The notes: generated from the letters alone by a model not told the origin. A stretch of DNA of 64,000 nt from Pseudomonadota bacterium (GCA_021801025.1 JAJYYK010000010.1:1-64000), one strand, 5' to 3'; positions 51,484 to 58,842 are shown, counted from the stretch's first letter. Translations and numbers: made by a program.

Positions 51484-51936
51484 ATGCGCTTGTTAATTTG
51501 GATCTTACTCATTTTTACCCTGGCAGTGGGTTTTACCCTGGCGGGGAAATTTGATCCGGGTTATGCCATCCTGGTGTACCCACCCTACCGGATTGAGCTT
51601 TCACTTATTCTGTTTACTTTATTGTTACTGGGTGTCATCGTGCTGGGTGCTGGTTTTCTTCGCTTCGCGACCACGGTTCTCAGCCTGCCGCGTTATGCAC
51701 GCGAATATCGGCAACACCAACGCCGACAGGAGGGAGAAACCGCCTTGTTGGACGCCTTGCGTGCCGACATTCAAAAAAAACCCAAAGTGGTTGAATTGGC
51801 TGCCCGCCGGGCCATCGAACTGGATTACCAACCGCAACTCGCGGCACTGCTCGCCGCACGCGCTGCGGAAACCTTGCACGAGTTAGCCAAACGCGACCAG
51901 TATCTTGAATTGGCAAACAAATATAAGACACTTTAA
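51484..51936 (+). CDS. hemY: HemY N-terminal domain protein, short form
   Basis: A 150-aa protein with two membrane helices (about 1-22 and 38-62) separated by the FDPGYAILVYPPYRIELSL motif of the HemY N-terminal domain, then a helical segment with ALLDALRADIQKKPKVVELAARRAIEL and LLAARAAETLHELAKRDQYLELA, the first TPR-like helices. HemY is normally about 390-400 aa with a long TPR domain; here the frame stops after the first repeats. It may be a genuine short variant or a truncation. No in-frame continuation is seen downstream. Confidence 0.85.
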   Translation: MRLLIWILLIFTLAVGFTLAGKFDPGYAILVYPPYRIELSLILFTLLLLGVIVLGAGFLRFATTVLSLPRYAREYRQHQRRQEGETALLDALRADIQKKPKVVELAARRAIELDYQPQLAALLAARAAETLHELAKRDQYLELANKYKTL

Positions 51937-52053: not shown

Positions 52054-54549
52054 ATGAAAAACGAGCCGGGACGCAACGCACTGTGCAAATGCGGTAGTGG
52101 TAAAAAATACAAACAGTGTTGCCTCAAGCGCACAAATGCTCAACCAGCATCGCCAATAAATCTCGCACAATGGATGCAGGAAGCGCTGGCACACCATCGT
52201 GCCGGGCATCTGACCGAGGCACAGATACTGTATCAGCAGATGCTGGAATACCCTGGCGCACAGCCCGATGTCTGGCATTTACTCGGGCTGCTCTGGCATG
52301 CACGCGGGGAACTGACGCAGGCGCAAGCCATGCTGGACCGGGCCGTCGCGTACCAACCCACCAATGCGGCTTATTGCGTGAGCCTGGGACTTGTCTTGCA
52401 AGCCATGGGGAGGCCCGGTGAAGCAGAAGTGCGTTACCGTCAGGCCATTTCCAGCCAACCGGATCATGCTGGCGCACACAACAATCTGGGTAATGCACTC
52501 GAAGAATTGGGGCAACAGGATGAAGCATTGATCAGCTACCATACCGCATTGCGCTTACAGGCTGACCCGGTCATTCATTACAATCTGGCTAATATGTTGC
52601 AAAAACGCGGGAACATGGATCAAGCTATCGATCACTACCAGCAGGCACTCGCTCTCAACCCGGTCTATACCGAAGCATGGGGGAATTTGGGTAGCGCGTT
52701 ACAACGGAGTTCACGCACCGCCGAGGCAATTGTCTGTTATCAGCAAGCAATTGCCTCGCGCGCGGATTATGCCGAGGCGCACAATAATTTGGGCAATGCA
52801 TTGAAGGAAGAAGGCAAGCTGATCGAGGCAGCGGCCTGCTACCGTGATGCGCTGGCCTTGCGTGAACACGATGAAGGCATCCATAACAACTTGGGGCATG
52901 TACTCAAAGCACTGGGGCAAGTGGAGGATGCCGTGATCAGTTATATGCGCGCAATCGCACTCAATCCCAATTATGTAGAAGCGATGACAAGTCTGGCCGG
53001 AATATTGCAGGAACAGGGCAAAACGTCACAGGCAATCGTACTGTATCAGCGCATTCTGGCGCTTAAACCAGATGCCCTGGAGGTACTGAACAATTTAGGT
53101 TGCGCATTCTTTAGTGTGGGCCAAATCGATGAGGCAGTAAACTGTTATTGCAATACCATATCGCTTTATCCGGATTCTGCCCAGGCACATTACAATCTTG
53201 GTGGTGCTTTACAGGCTCTGTGGCGACTGGATGAAGCCGTAGACAGCTACCGCCACGCGCTTGAACTCAAGCCTGATTATGCCGAAGCGCACAATAACCT
53301 TGGCAATGTATTCAAAGCACTGGAACAATTTGACGCAGCGAGGAGCTGTTATCAGCGTGCGCTGGAACTCGATCCGCAATCAGCGCAAACAAGCTGTAAT
53401 CTGGCTATTCTTGATTCAACCCAAAAACATTATGAGCAAGCTGAGCGTGGATATCGACAAACACTGGCCCTGGCACCGGACATGGTAGTAGCCCATCGCA
53501 ATTTGGCTGCATTGCTGGCGCAGGACGGACGTATCGACGAGGCCAGACAACACATGGATCGCGCTTACCGGCAACAGTGCTGGTTCCATGAACACCGTCA
53601 CGGGGTAGCGCGCACTGTATTAATTTTATTGGGTGTGGAAAAAGGCAATGTACCCTTTACGCACCTGTTCCCGCCCGAACGCAACAACACAGTGGAATGG
53701 ATCATTGATTATGCGCCTGATCCCTCCAGCCCAAACTTGCCGAATTATGATCTGGTCTTCAATGCCTTGGGCGAACCCGATATGACAAGTGCAGCAGCCG
53801 AATACGTGCGGCAGTTTGTGCAAGGCTGTGAGCGACCGGTATTGAACCCGCCCTCTGCAATTGCCCGAACTTCACGCGACCGGATGGATGAATTATTTGG
53901 TGATCTGGATGGTGTACTGGTGCCGACCGTATGGCGCGTGTCAGATGAAACAACCTGGCCGGAAAAATTGGCCTGGCCTGCCATTGTCCGTCCGGCGGGT
54001 TCCCACGGCGGCGAAGGCATGATGCGGCTGGACGATGCCGATGCACTAAAACGGTGGCTGTCCATACATACCGGGCAGACCTGTTATCTGAGCCAGTATC
54101 ACGATTATTGCTCAACCGATGGTTATTTTCGCAAATACCGTATGATCTTCATCAATGGCATACCTTACCCCTATCATCTGGCTATCTCATCGCACTGGAT
54201 GGTTCATTATGCCACTGCAGAGATGCTGGAAGCGTGGAAGCTTGCGGAAGAACAACAATTTTTGGCTGATCCTGTGTCCGTGTTGGGCCAGTCAGCCTTC
54301 ACGGCTATTACGGCCATCGGCCAGCGCCTTGGTCTGGCCTTTGCCGGGGCAGATTTCAGCCTGTTGCCGGATGGACGTATTCTACTGTTTGAGGCTAACG
54401 CGACAATGCTGGTCCATCCAGAGCAGGACGAACCACGGTTGATGTTCAAGAATGTCTATGTCGAGCGAATTTATGCGGCATTTGACGCATTACTTGCCGA
54501 GTTCAGCCATGGATTGACAGCAATCGGAGCATCCAGAACAGATATTTAG
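52054..54549 (+). CDS. SEC-C / TPR / ATP-grasp-like protein
   Basis: An 831-aa protein of three parts. Residues 5-25 are a SEC-C zinc motif (NALCKCGSGKKYKQCC). Residues about 30-500 are some thirteen TPRs with the YAEAHNNLGNALKEEGK and LNPNYVEAMTSLAGILQEQG pattern. The C-terminal 330 residues resemble an ATP-grasp ligase: LVFNALGEPD, the glycine loop IVRPAGSHGGEGM, DGYFRKYRMIFINGIPYPYHLAIS, and the metal-binding FEANATM. The same C-terminal domain is in the protein encoded at 55723. No signal peptide. GCGGG before ATG 52054 is weak; a TTG at 52051 is in frame. It is followed by the Ser-rich gene. A ligase acting on a protein substrate held by TPRs is my inference. Confidence 0.85.
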   Translation: MKNEPGRNALCKCGSGKKYKQCCLKRTNAQPASPINLAQWMQEALAHHRAGHLTEAQILYQQMLEYPGAQPDVWHLLGLLWHARGELTQAQAMLDRAVAYQPTNAAYCVSLGLVLQAMGRPGEAEVRYRQAISSQPDHAGAHNNLGNALEELGQQDEALISYHTALRLQADPVIHYNLANMLQKRGNMDQAIDHYQQALALNPVYTEAWGNLGSALQRSSRTAEAIVCYQQAIASRADYAEAHNNLGNALKEEGKLIEAAACYRDALALREHDEGIHNNLGHVLKALGQVEDAVISYMRAIALNPNYVEAMTSLAGILQEQGKTSQAIVLYQRILALKPDALEVLNNLGCAFFSVGQIDEAVNCYCNTISLYPDSAQAHYNLGGALQALWRLDEAVDSYRHALELKPDYAEAHNNLGNVFKALEQFDAARSCYQRALELDPQSAQTSCNLAILDSTQKHYEQAERGYRQTLALAPDMVVAHRNLAALLAQDGRIDEARQHMDRAYRQQCWFHEHRHGVARTVLILLGVEKGNVPFTHLFPPERNNTVEWIIDYAPDPSSPNLPNYDLVFNALGEPDMTSAAAEYVRQFVQGCERPVLNPPSAIARTSRDRMDELFGDLDGVLVPTVWRVSDETTWPEKLAWPAIVRPAGSHGGEGMMRLDDADALKRWLSIHTGQTCYLSQYHDYCSTDGYFRKYRMIFINGIPYPYHLAISSHWMVHYATAEMLEAWKLAEEQQFLADPVSVLGQSAFTAITAIGQRLGLAFAGADFSLLPDGRILLFEANATMLVHPEQDEPRLMFKNVYVERIYAAFDALLAEFSHGLTAIGASRTDI

Positions 54550-54822
54550 TGTGATACAAAATACAGTATGTTGTTGCAATACACAGAATCTTGTAGCATA
54601 ATTTAAAACATAGTTTTTAGAAAAATCAAAATTTTACGGGCAAGATGACTCAATCTGGTTTAGGATAATATATTTGATTATTTTACAATCAATATGTTAT
54701 TAATATAATTATAATATAATTATTGGCATTTTCGATATCGCAACGCCGCGTAAAAATCGCATGACGCGAAGGACAATGCGCACCGAATTATTCCAATTTA
54801 TCAGTTATAAAAAGGAAATATC
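54550..54822 (+). promoter_or_regulatory. AT-rich spacer, probable promoter of the Ser-rich gene
   Basis: 273 bp with very high AT content (notably 54660-54725, runs of TAATATAATTATAATATAATTATT). No gene is visible. It ends in AAAAAGGAAATATC, the ribosome site of the ATG at 54823. Such a strong, AT-rich leader is unlike the neighbours and suggests separate, possibly high or silenced, expression. Confidence 0.5.
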
Positions 54823-55458
54823 ATGTCTATTTCAGCACTCAGCGGGAGCAGTCTGGCAATAAGTAACTTAGCCCCAACAAGTTTGACAGCGGTCAACCAA
54901 AACAACCAGATTAGTAATCTCAATAGCACATCAACCCCCTCAGGCGTTGGGAAATTCAGTTTTGCTATCAATCAGGCCCTCTCACAACTTGGCATCAATT
55001 CGTCCAGCAGCGCCACCAATACACCAGCGACATCAACAACACAAAACCCGCAGCAAGCTTTGTCGGTTTTCATGCAAAACTTGTTTGCAGCAATGCAATC
55101 TCAAATGAGCACGCAGGCATCCAGTACCTCTGCCAGCAATTCAGGCGGCAACGGCAGCAGCACCAATGCCATTGCCAGCACCTCGGGTCATCATGCTCAC
55201 CATGGCGGCGGCATGAGCAAGCTTGAAAACGGTTTACAAAATCTCTTGCAGCAACTCTCAGCCCCCTCCTCATCAAGCCAAACCTCATCAGGCTCATCTA
55301 GCCCTTCGCTGAATTTGCTGCAACAAAGCTTCAACAATCTATTGTCGGCAGATGCCGCGTCAGGCACTGGGGCCACATTGAGCAGTTTCCTGCAAAACCT
55401 GTCACAAAATATGCAAGGTGCCAAACCCGCTGGGAATGTTATTTCCACCCAGGCTTGA
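54823..55458 (+). CDS. Ser/Asn/Gln-rich low-complexity protein
   Basis: 211 aa of biased composition (Ser, Asn, Gln, Thr, Ala, Leu) with hardly any charged residues. It has no Sec signal peptide; the N-terminus MSISALSGSSLAISN resembles substrates of flagellar/type III export, whose operon is 2.2 kb downstream. A hinge GHHAHHGGG (about 121-129) separates an N-terminal part from a C-terminal part made of amphipathic LQNLLQQL / LQQSFNNLL / FLQNLSQNM helices. AAGGAAATATC precedes the ATG. It is bracketed by two TPR/ATP-grasp genes, so it is a candidate substrate or partner. Function unknown. Confidence 0.8.
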   Translation: MSISALSGSSLAISNLAPTSLTAVNQNNQISNLNSTSTPSGVGKFSFAINQALSQLGINSSSSATNTPATSTTQNPQQALSVFMQNLFAAMQSQMSTQASSTSASNSGGNGSSTNAIASTSGHHAHHGGGMSKLENGLQNLLQQLSAPSSSSQTSSGSSSPSLNLLQQSFNNLLSADAASGTGATLSSFLQNLSQNMQGAKPAGNVISTQA

Positions 55459-55705
55459 AGCCTGACCCGAATTTCGCACCAACTTGGCCTTCACAGGCAG
55501 ATCAGCACACATCGCTCTAACCGTCATGGTGATGTTGCCGCCCCAAATGATGAAACAGCACTTTACTATGCCCGTTTCTCCTTACCTCCTGCTTTCTCCC
55601 CTGGTGGGAAAGAGGGATGAAATCTCGCTACGCGAGTTTCACGCTATGGGGAGAGCAGGACGAAGTTTCCCTGTGCCAATTTCACGCCAAAGGACGGGAT
55701 TCCAG

Positions 55706-55717
55706 ACCAGCAAGGAA
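55706..55717 (+). repeat. Isolated tail of the dispersed repeat serving as ribosome site
   Basis: ACCAGCAAGGAA matches the 3' tail of the repeat copies (AACCAGCAAGGAA). Here it stands six bases before the ATG of the second ATP-grasp gene, supplying its AAGGA. The rest of the element is not recognisable upstream, apart from a CTCGC/GCGAG hairpin near 55618-55640. Confidence 0.55.
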
Positions 55718-55722
55718 TTTTG

Positions 55723-57351
55723 ATGAATTCGCTGAATGACACAACCACACAGCGATTAGCGATCAAGATATCTGCGCTGCTGGCGAACGAAAAATATCAA
55801 CAGGCACTGGACACCGCAAACCACGCGCTGGACATGCATCCGCAAAGCGCAGTATTGTGTGATTTGGCAGGTGTGTGCGCATCAAAACTGGGATATGTGA
55901 CGCAAGCGGAACAACACCATCGCAACGCGCTGCTACTGGATCAAACAGCCACTGCAATCCGTTTGAATCTGGCGAATTTGTTGGCCGGTTCCAGCCGGGA
56001 TGAAGACAAGGAAGAAGCAAAAGCTTTATTTCTTGAAATAATACAAGCCGAACCCAGCCATTTACAGGCATTAAACAATCTGGGGATATTGCTGTTTCAA
56101 ACAGGGTATGTTTCGGCGGCACATACCGTCTATGCGGCTTTGGTTACTCATCATCCGGATGAAGTCACGGCACATGTCAATTTTGGGCATGTGCTGTTAT
56201 CTCTCGACAACCTGTCGTTAGCCCAAATACATTTTCATATTGCACTGTCGTTTAATCCCGATCTGCCTGAAGCGCATCAAGGCCTTGCTTCTGTTTTTCA
56301 CCGGTTGCACGATGAGGACAAAGCCTGTTTTCACAGAAAACGGGGATTTTCTGCCCAACCCATATCCAGATTGTCATACGGTGGGCCAACCAAACCTGTT
56401 CCACTGTTAATTTTGGCCTCTGCCCAAGAAGGAAATATCCCCTGGCGTTTCCTGATTGACCGCAATGTATTTGAAACGACGATCATCGCAGTAGAATATT
56501 TTGACAACGTAACACCGCTTCCTGCTCACGCACTGGTTTTCAATGCAATTGGTGATGCAGACCTCTGCCATGACGGGCTTAAGAGGGCTCAACACCTTCT
56601 TGAATCATCACACGCTTCCATCATCAACCAACCGGCAACCGTATTAAAAACCGGACGAATGGCCAATGCGATGCAACGTCAAACCGTACCGGGTGTTATT
56701 TTTCCCCGCATGGTACTTTTTTCAAAATTGAATACAGAAACAGCCTTGGTACCAGAAGTTTTGGCACAAGCACACATCCACTTTCCGTTTTTGCTGCGTA
56801 CGCCAGGTTTTCACGGTGGAAACCATTTCTTGCCTGTAAAAAACCACCACGCACTCCATGCTGCCATGGCAGCACTACCAGGGGAGAATTTATTGGCCAT
56901 TGAATTTCTCGATTCACAATCGAAAGATGGTTTATTCAGAAAATACAGGGTGATGTCAATTAATGGCCACCTATACCCCATACATATGGCAATTTCTACC
57001 CAATGGAAAGTTCACTACTTCAGTTCGGACATGGCCAATTCACCAGCGTATCGCCACGAAGAATCGCTGTTTTTAAATAATTTTTCGACATATTTTGGGC
57101 CTGGTGCACTGACATCACTCCAGCAAATCAGTCGGTCGATCGGACTGGATTTTTGTGGCATGGATTTCGGATTCGATGCGAACGGACATATTTTACTTTA
57201 CGAAGCCAACGCAACGATGGCGATTAACCCGCCAAGCGCCGATGCACAATGGGATTACAAACGTGAAGCCATTGAAAACGCACTTACGGCGACAAAAAAA
57301 ATGTTTTTGAAGCGCGCCACAGTATCCGTTTTTAGGCCGATTAGCCTCTAA
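55723..57351 (+). CDS. TPR / ATP-grasp-like protein, paralogue of the one at 52054
   Basis: 542 aa. Residues about 15-210 are five TPR-like repeats; the C-terminal 320 residues align with the upstream paralogue: LVFNAIGDAD, FLLRTPGFHGGNHF in place of the glycine loop, DGLFRKYRVMSINGHLYPIHMAIS, GLDFCGMDFGFDANGHILLYEANATM. It lacks the SEC-C zinc motif. In the loop, the RPAGSHGGEGM of the paralogue has become RTPGFHGGNHF, so nucleotide binding may differ. AAGGA, from a repeat tail, precedes ATG 55723. The gene follows the Ser-rich gene and ends 315 bp before flhB. Confidence 0.82.
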   Translation: MNSLNDTTTQRLAIKISALLANEKYQQALDTANHALDMHPQSAVLCDLAGVCASKLGYVTQAEQHHRNALLLDQTATAIRLNLANLLAGSSRDEDKEEAKALFLEIIQAEPSHLQALNNLGILLFQTGYVSAAHTVYAALVTHHPDEVTAHVNFGHVLLSLDNLSLAQIHFHIALSFNPDLPEAHQGLASVFHRLHDEDKACFHRKRGFSAQPISRLSYGGPTKPVPLLILASAQEGNIPWRFLIDRNVFETTIIAVEYFDNVTPLPAHALVFNAIGDADLCHDGLKRAQHLLESSHASIINQPATVLKTGRMANAMQRQTVPGVIFPRMVLFSKLNTETALVPEVLAQAHIHFPFLLRTPGFHGGNHFLPVKNHHALHAAMAALPGENLLAIEFLDSQSKDGLFRKYRVMSINGHLYPIHMAISTQWKVHYFSSDMANSPAYRHEESLFLNNFSTYFGPGALTSLQQISRSIGLDFCGMDFGFDANGHILLYEANATMAINPPSADAQWDYKREAIENALTATKKMFLKRATVSVFRPISL

Positions 57352-57666: not shown

Positions 57667-58842
57667 ATGGCTGAAGACAGCGGTCTTGAAAAAACGGAAC
57701 AGGCGTCATTACAGCGCCTGGAAAAAGCACGTGAGGAAGGCGATGTACCGCGCTCACGCGAATTGGCGACCTTTACCGGATTGTTGGCTGCGGGTAGCGG
57801 CATCTGGCTCTCAGGTGACCGGTTGATTCGCCAACTTGAGACCAATTTGGTGGATGGCATGCGTTTTGATCGTGCCCAAGCATTTGATTTCTCATTACTC
57901 TACGCCCATTTAGCACACAACTTATGGAATTTGTTTCTTGCCTTTTCGCCCGTCGCCGGGCTTTTACTTTTAGTTGCCATGTTTTCCCCTGCCCTGATTG
58001 GGGGGTGGCTCTTTAGTCCAAACGCTTTATTACCAAACTTTGCCCGCATCAATCCACTTACCGGCATTGGCAATTTACTGTCTTCACGATCGATCATGGA
58101 ACTGGTCAAGGCCATTGCCAAAGCTGCATTAGTGGGTACAGTCGCATGGTTAGTGGTGATACAACAAAAAGAAGCTGTGATGGGGCTCAGTCTGGAATCC
58201 TTGCCTTCCGCTATCACACATATGGCCAACATGTTGTGGATAGCGTTTATTTCCATGACTGCTGCGCTGGGTTTGATCGTCATGATGGACGTGCCTTACC
58301 AATTGATGCACTACGCAAACAAACTCAAAATGACTCGTCAGGAAGTGCGCCAAGAAGCCAAAGAGTCGGATGGGAATCCCCAAATCAAGGCCAAGATACG
58401 TGCGCAACAACGTGAAATGGCGCGACGGCGAATGATGTCGGAAGTGCCCAATGCTGACGTGGTGGTGACCAACCCTACGCACTATGCCGTGGCACTCAAA
58501 TATGCAGACGGCGCCATGGGCGCACCGATTGTCGTCGCGAAAGGCGCGGACGAAGTCGCTGCTAAAATTCGCGAATTGGCGCTTGAGCATGCCGTCCCTA
58601 TTTTAGAAGCACCGCCACTGGCGCGGGCCCTGTATCAACACGCGGAACTGACACACGAAATCCCTGAGGCGCTTTATACCGCCGTTGCCGAAGTGCTTGC
58701 TTACGTCTTTCAATTACGCACCTACCGTCAACATGGAGGGATTGCCCCGATTACGCCGGGCGAAATCAAAGTACCCACCGAATTGGACCCTTTGCATGAT
58801 GAGATTTCAACCCAAGCCGGGAACGGAGAAATACTGCTGTGA
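57667..58842 (+). CDS. flhB: Flagellar export switch protein FlhB
   Basis: 391-aa membrane component of the flagellar type III export gate that changes substrate specificity after autocleavage. Starts with the usual soluble lead (EKTEQASLQRLEKAREEGDVPRSRE), four membrane helices, and the cytoplasmic domain with the cleavage motif NPTH at residues 269-272. Longer than many FlhBs by a C-terminal tail of about 20 residues. Its stop overlaps the flhA start (GTGA). Confidence 0.97.
   Translation: MAEDSGLEKTEQASLQRLEKAREEGDVPRSRELATFTGLLAAGSGIWLSGDRLIRQLETNLVDGMRFDRAQAFDFSLLYAHLAHNLWNLFLAFSPVAGLLLLVAMFSPALIGGWLFSPNALLPNFARINPLTGIGNLLSSRSIMELVKAIAKAALVGTVAWLVVIQQKEAVMGLSLESLPSAITHMANMLWIAFISMTAALGLIVMMDVPYQLMHYANKLKMTRQEVRQEAKESDGNPQIKAKIRAQQREMARRRMMSEVPNADVVVTNPTHYAVALKYADGAMGAPIVVAKGADEVAAKIRELALEHAVPILEAPPLARALYQHAELTHEIPEALYTAVAEVLAYVFQLRTYRQHGGIAPITPGEIKVPTELDPLHDEISTQAGNGEILL

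Follow-up and report, generated by a model that had tools for sequence, protein, structure and literature searches.

Two genes (A and B) in a 64,000-nucleotide stretch of Pseudomonadota DNA (GCA_021801025.1, JAJYYK010000010.1:1-64000; called the window below) encode proteins in which an N-terminal tetratricopeptide repeat (TPR) region is fused to a C-terminal ATP-grasp domain. Fold and family of these C-terminal domains are settled. We suggest that A and B are ligases that would act on flagellar or co-exported proteins, or on the small-molecule decoration of such proteins, and our rough probability for this reading is 40%. Between A and B lies a gene for a low-charge, serine-rich protein (Ser). 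Coordinates, order and strand of the three genes, which had been given in a preliminary description of the locus, were confirmed on the sequence.

The C-terminal domains of A and B are ATP-grasp domains

The two proteins are organized as follows.

52054..54549, + strand: gene A, SEC-C motif, TPR array and ATP-grasp domain, 831 aa
52072..52125, + strand: SEC-C zinc-finger-like motif of A, residues 7-24 (PF02810, 30.3 bits, cutoff 20.4)
52171..53577, + strand: TPR array of A, spanning roughly residues 40-508 (profiles of many TPR families score above cutoff, with as many as 14 stretches)
53590..54546, + strand: ATP-grasp domain of A, residues 513-831 (AlphaFold2 model, Foldseek matches to Ddl, VanA, RimK and LysX)
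55723..57351, + strand: gene B, short TPR region and ATP-grasp domain, 542 aa
55762..56337, + strand: TPR region of B, about residues 14-205 (domain profiles)
56398..57348, + strand: ATP-grasp domain of B, catalytic residues intact (family alignment, tree)

Alignment of A with B (E 3e-51) indicated that their C-terminal domains are homologous, and the sequence blocks quoted for them in the preliminary description are real in the family alignment. The TPR regions differ in length, as described there, and only the protein with the long array carries the SEC-C motif. The AlphaFold2 model of A's domain, which was based on a 76-sequence alignment, reached a predicted local distance difference test score (pLDDT) of 92.5 and a predicted template modelling score of 0.91. 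When this model was compared with the PDB by Foldseek, we found D-Ala-D-Ala/D-Lac ligases, RimK, LysX and synapsin (E 1.7e-12). There were 592 matches at E<=1e-3 with TM-scores of about 0.5-0.6, and the best 50 matches listed were all ATP-grasp enzymes or synapsins. The structural check thus left the earlier ATP-grasp assignment standing, and B's domain belongs to the same class because of its homology to the modelled domain of A.

For A, B and the relatives that were checked, no Pfam or NCBIfam ATP-grasp model scored above cutoff. The top score for A's domain was obtained with CPSase_L_D2 (14.5 bits, cutoff 19.8); a profile search with this domain returned weak ATP-grasp matches only, and phmmer found no match for it in the PDB. 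Similarity to the R2K clade (CDC123, PF18299) was limited to weak profile matches below cutoff (E 0.013-0.05). RimK, LysX and D-Ala-D-Ala ligase share the fold and the catalytic layout of A and B, but sequence identity to them is 12-18 percent, the TPR fusion sets A and B apart and the rimK_fam model TIGR00768 gave 13.7 bits for B and 22.4 bits for one relative at a cutoff of 143.4. Membership in the RimK family was rejected on these scores.

All 76 rows of the alignment, including A and B, have R96, R134, G141, D177, K182, R184, H196, W203, H206, D255 and E268 in common, and position 270 is N or D throughout (N270 is kept in B). Knowledge of the fold assigns nucleotide and metal roles to R134, K182, R184, D255, E268 and N270/D. 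The preliminary description had pointed to an altered glycine loop in B and had proposed one active and one regulatory or specialized enzyme. That the loop signals a loss or change of activity was not confirmed. We found that the loop varies family-wide and that B departs mostly at positions that are already variable, while R134, the conserved H139 and G141 are kept. Since the invariant residues are intact, there is no sign of B as a dead or regulatory copy. The idea that the active site of B is lost or has become regulatory was rejected, and the intact catalytic residues of both copies contradict the proposed division of labor.

In general, ATP-grasp ligases use ATP to activate a carboxylate, which they then join to an amine. 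From the fold and the intact catalytic residues we infer that A and B would be carboxylate-amine ligases of the same kind, in which ATP converts the carboxylate to an acyl phosphate and attack by an amine yields an amide. In a tree of 157 domains, the family separates into clade I (n=73), which comprises A, B and TPR-fused relatives including Paraburkholderia copies, and clade II (n=84), which mostly has a short N-terminus. The window's genome, most likely that of a sulfur-oxidizing Sulfuriferula, carries four family copies: besides A and B, contig C8 holds a divergent pair.

The ATP-grasp family occurs with flagella

Downstream of B we found the beginning of a flagellar gene cluster.

57667..58842, + strand: flhB, which opens the cluster flhB-flhA-flhF-flhG-fliA, 3' of B (sequence and synteny)

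A flagellar association had not been among the earlier observations on this locus. Among the Burkholderiales genomes, FlgI was present in 64 of 68 ATP-grasp-positive and in 202 of 331 negative genomes (p 6e-9). Counted by genus, the corresponding figures were 28/29 and 89/129 (p 8e-4). A flagellar gene was located within 6 kb of 21 of the 152 ATP-grasp loci (8 of 29 genera) and of none of the 40 control regions (p 0.005), which were placed systematically in seven ATP-grasp-positive genomes; roughly 3 percent is expected from the cluster sizes. The flagellar genes met near these loci hold many positions (flhB; fliE/F/G; fliP/Q/R; flgA-F; fliC/fliD). Clade I is represented among them by the window and by its sister species, L067 (near fliE/F/G), L099 (fliE at 97 bp) and L226 (flgB at 343 bp), with L093 as a weak case. 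A complete congener that lacks flhB and flgI (G017) has no ligase copy either. Taken together, these data link the family to flagella, both by its occurrence among genomes and by its location near flagellar genes, with a caveat for related genomes. Because of this near-restriction to flagellated Burkholderiales and the recurrence in flagellar gene clusters, flagellar or co-exported proteins appear to be the likeliest clients, and A and B may add an amide-linked group to them.

Several points weigh against this reading. The flagella-adjacent copies are mostly of clade II and lack a long TPR array. Most clade I genes do not adjoin flagellar genes, and in Paraburkholderia many copies are isolated or have a SerC-like aminotransferase gene as neighbour. 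Shared ancestry or a motile lifestyle may account for the association. Moreover, related genomes and loci do not count as independent observations, part of the rows were selected by sequence and gaps in metagenome-assembled genomes touch all counts, so that the p-values overstate certainty and the genus-level figures are safer. The window itself is a lineage-specific hem/flh junction; in other Sulfuriferula the two clusters are unlinked, and in Sulfuriferula sp. AH1 they are about 1.1 Mb apart. Finally, the substrate of A and B is a prediction.

Comparison with known flagellin-modifying proteins

The flagellin O-glycosyltransferase FlmG of Caulobacter is a cytoplasmic protein with N-terminal TPR and a C-terminal glycosyltransferase domain, and both the modification of flagellin and motility depend on it (PMC7591256). 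A and B resemble FlmG in combining N-terminal TPR with a C-terminal catalytic domain, but this domain is a GT-B glycosyltransferase in FlmG and an ATP-grasp domain in A and B, for which flagellin is a predicted client only. By analogy, the TPR arm would most likely grip a protein client in the cytoplasm. ATP-grasp proteins have also been tied to flagellin modification. Loss of SfmE (SO_3265), which belongs to the Shewanella sfmABCDE genes, shifts the flagellin mass (PMC3765264), and CDR20291_0245 of C. difficile is an ATP-grasp protein in a flagellin-modification locus (PMC5207246, PMC5207245). However, these two proteins are described as ATP-grasp_4/PF13535 members of flagellin-decoration operons with TPR unmentioned, whereas the family of A and B gave no PF13535 match in our scans.

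Clade II and small-molecule products

The typical setting of a clade II gene is a trio, completed by a PF00282 decarboxylase gene and a gene for a protein that matches no Pfam model. We modelled this protein as a fold-type-I enzyme dependent on pyridoxal phosphate (PLP; pLDDT 80) that resembles SufS, CsdA and Egt2 (cysteine desulfurase/Egt2). The trio was seen at L057:3883-8099, L041, L056, L058 and further loci; a sigma-54 activator gene lies upstream in several genomes, and some copies are located beside fliC and fliD. It looks like an undescribed amide-forming pathway. Its occurrence in many genomes, together with the SerC-like aminotransferase genes adjoining TPR-ATP-grasp genes in Paraburkholderia (in L073 with a PRK12462 match above cutoff), is consistent with A and B also making a soluble amide or peptide metabolite, with TPRs that serve regulation or complex formation and a flagellar proximity that reflects co-regulation with motility. 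We consider this explanation possible but rather unlikely, since the long TPR arrays of clade I suggest a protein client, the flagellar settings are several and unrelated, and neither a decarboxylase nor an aminotransferase gene adjoins A or B in the window.

Inspection of the B-clade and C'-clade neighbourhoods revealed no conserved partner. At L065, L066 and L113, TPR-ATP-grasp genes occur as tandem or divergent pairs without an intervening Ser gene, and thus the pairing recurs independently of Ser. At L108, L118 and L135, ATP-grasp or trio genes are found near genes for giant low-charge proteins. The one that was scanned (L118) consists of ALTTAQ repeats (PF20080) and is another low-complexity neighbour of the family; a literature search for ALTTAQ gave no match. 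Two ATP-grasp copies (G010:C2:14374-15195 and G005:C175:3418-4239) show a single in-frame TGA within their first match and are possibly pseudogenes or alignment-edge effects.

Ser belongs to a conserved but unnamed family

The features of the gene between A and B are listed below.

54682..54709, + strand: sigma-70-like promoter site, located in the AT-rich sequence that precedes Ser (consensus matches 11/12)
54823..55458, + strand: Ser gene, low-charge Ser/Asn/Gln/Thr-rich protein of 211 aa with MSIS start and GNVISTQA tail (alignment, Burkholderiales family)
55432..55455, + strand: conserved C-terminal tail GNVISTQA of Ser (alignment)

The window copy contains 49 Ser, 22 Asn, 21 Gln and 17 Thr residues, with 3 Lys, 1 Glu, 1 Asp and 0 Arg. 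A Pfam/NCBIfam scan of Ser gave no match above cutoff, and for its homologues we obtained weak Pex19/EF-hand matches below cutoff. Composition, profile scans and upstream sequence thus agree with the earlier account of a charge-poor, Ser-rich protein of no known family with its own AT-rich leader. Homologues are present in 45 of 399 Burkholderiales genomes. They share an MSIS-type start, the blocks QALxxFMQNLFAA and LQQLS and a GNVVSTQA-type tail and have almost no cysteine; a DxDxD stretch is frequent in the family and absent from the window copy. Ser therefore represents a conserved but unnamed family. The sigma-70-like site is suggestive only as its promoter, with 17 sites of this quality observed in the region and 8.7 expected.

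Across taxonomic families, CpxR/CpxA-like two-component systems are the commonest neighbours of Ser genes and occur beside them in 5 to 6 families; ATP-grasp genes come second. Such systems adjoin the Ser genes at L048, L184, L194, L201, L210, L217 and L220, which represent several taxonomic families. A scan for CpxR boxes upstream of Ser genes showed no enrichment (3/43, 2.15 expected). No signal peptide of Ser was evident by eye. From composition and context, Ser is probably an independent exported protein. In G006, a short fragment of the Ser family (L026:8738-8947) lies about 1.7 kb upstream of A, on the flank opposite the Ser gene, which suggests that Ser copies near A have been duplicated or have decayed.

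Ser and the ligases form a loose partnership

ATP-grasp genes were carried by 29 of the 45 Ser-positive and by 39 of the 354 Ser-negative genomes (odds ratio 14.6, p 1e-14), and by 12/24 Ser-positive and 17/134 other genera (p 1e-4). Within flagellated genomes the co-occurrence persisted (odds ratio 8.5, p 4e-9). Direct adjacency was found in the window's genome and its sister species (G000 and G004; A and B), in G006 (A), in G013 (a clade II copy) and in Sterolibacterium (L089; a Paraburkholderia-type clade I copy), whereas chance predicts about 0.05 such pairs in the order sample. The Ser genes of these pairs are not all orthologous. Within Sulfuriferula, the loci of G013 and the window may descend from one ancestral locus, and we therefore counted two to four independent adjacency events.

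These associations, as well as the strongly conserved C-terminal tail of Ser, are what one would expect if A and/or B modified Ser as their own substrate, either by graspetide-like cross-links or by RimK-type C-terminal tailing. However, four congeners have A but no detectable Ser gene (G005, G007, G009 and G010, of which G009 is only 64 percent complete), which argues against Ser being a dedicated substrate. In addition, 16 of the 45 Ser-positive genomes have no ATP-grasp copy, the ATP-grasps that adjoin Ser are drawn from different clades, the window copy offers few charged side chains, and the gene has its own leader and promoter-like site. We regard modification of Ser as the purpose of A and B as improbable.

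A graspetide system, which the preliminary description had suggested as a dedicated ligase/substrate module, does share with this locus an ATP-grasp gene adjoining a gene for a low-complexity protein, as in microviridin-type systems. Graspetide chemistry needs Asp or Glu in the core. Here we found no acidic core with Ser/Thr/Lys (2 acidic residues in the 211 of the window copy), no short precursor and, with A lacking a detectable Ser in four congeners, no obligatory ligase-partner pairing; the candidate was rejected, and a dedicated module is not supported. Separate TPR proteins of unclear role are mentioned in graspetide phylogenomics, but not a fusion. The complete order A-Ser-B was found in the window's genome and the sister species only, where the copy spans a contig break. 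Together with A copies lacking Ser and Ser-positive genomes lacking a ligase, this indicates a loose partnership rather than an obligate module. The survey of homologues proposed earlier bore out adjacency above chance and not a fixed pairing; Ser lies more often by the CpxAR-like system. Ser is at most an occasional partner of the ligases and a candidate for an additional client.

Origin of the locus

A, Ser and B are consecutive + strand genes that are flanked by a short hemY-like gene and by flhB, with intergenic gaps of 273 bp (A-Ser), 264 bp (Ser-B) and about 315 bp (B-flhB). The hemY-like gene (window 51484-51936) encodes 150 aa with a HemY_N domain alone and is short in the sister species too; HemY usually has a TPR part, which is missing here. 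Comparison with the sister species gave ratios of non-synonymous to synonymous substitution of 0.15 (A), 0.24 (Ser) and 0.18 (B), which indicates purifying selection on all three genes.

The three genes could have been joined by coincidence at the hem/flh rearrangement junction, Ser being an envelope-stress protein and A and B unrelated housekeeping ligases. The distance between the two clusters in strain AH1, the restriction of the full order to two sister species and the CpxAR-like neighbours of Ser are in line with such an origin. This scenario has a low probability in our view, since the adjacency of Ser and ATP-grasp genes recurs with non-orthologous Ser copies and the two families co-occur at the genome level.

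Implications

A wider proposal is that Burkholderiales possess a new class of exported-protein modification, in which TPR-guided ATP-grasp ligases and their clade II partners, which the PLP decarboxylase trio would supply, would add amino acids or amines to flagellar and Ser/Asn/Gln/Thr-rich exported proteins before secretion; this we consider doubtful. The new part of our findings is the unnamed family with its TPR fusion, and the enzymatic kind is already known. If A and B indeed act as ligases on flagellar or co-exported proteins, they would define an ATP-grasp family that is absent from Pfam and NCBIfam, and this family would have a testable role in the decoration of flagellar or exported proteins across a large bacterial order. 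The logic of FlmG, in which TPR are combined with a catalytic domain, would then be extended from sugars to amide bonds.

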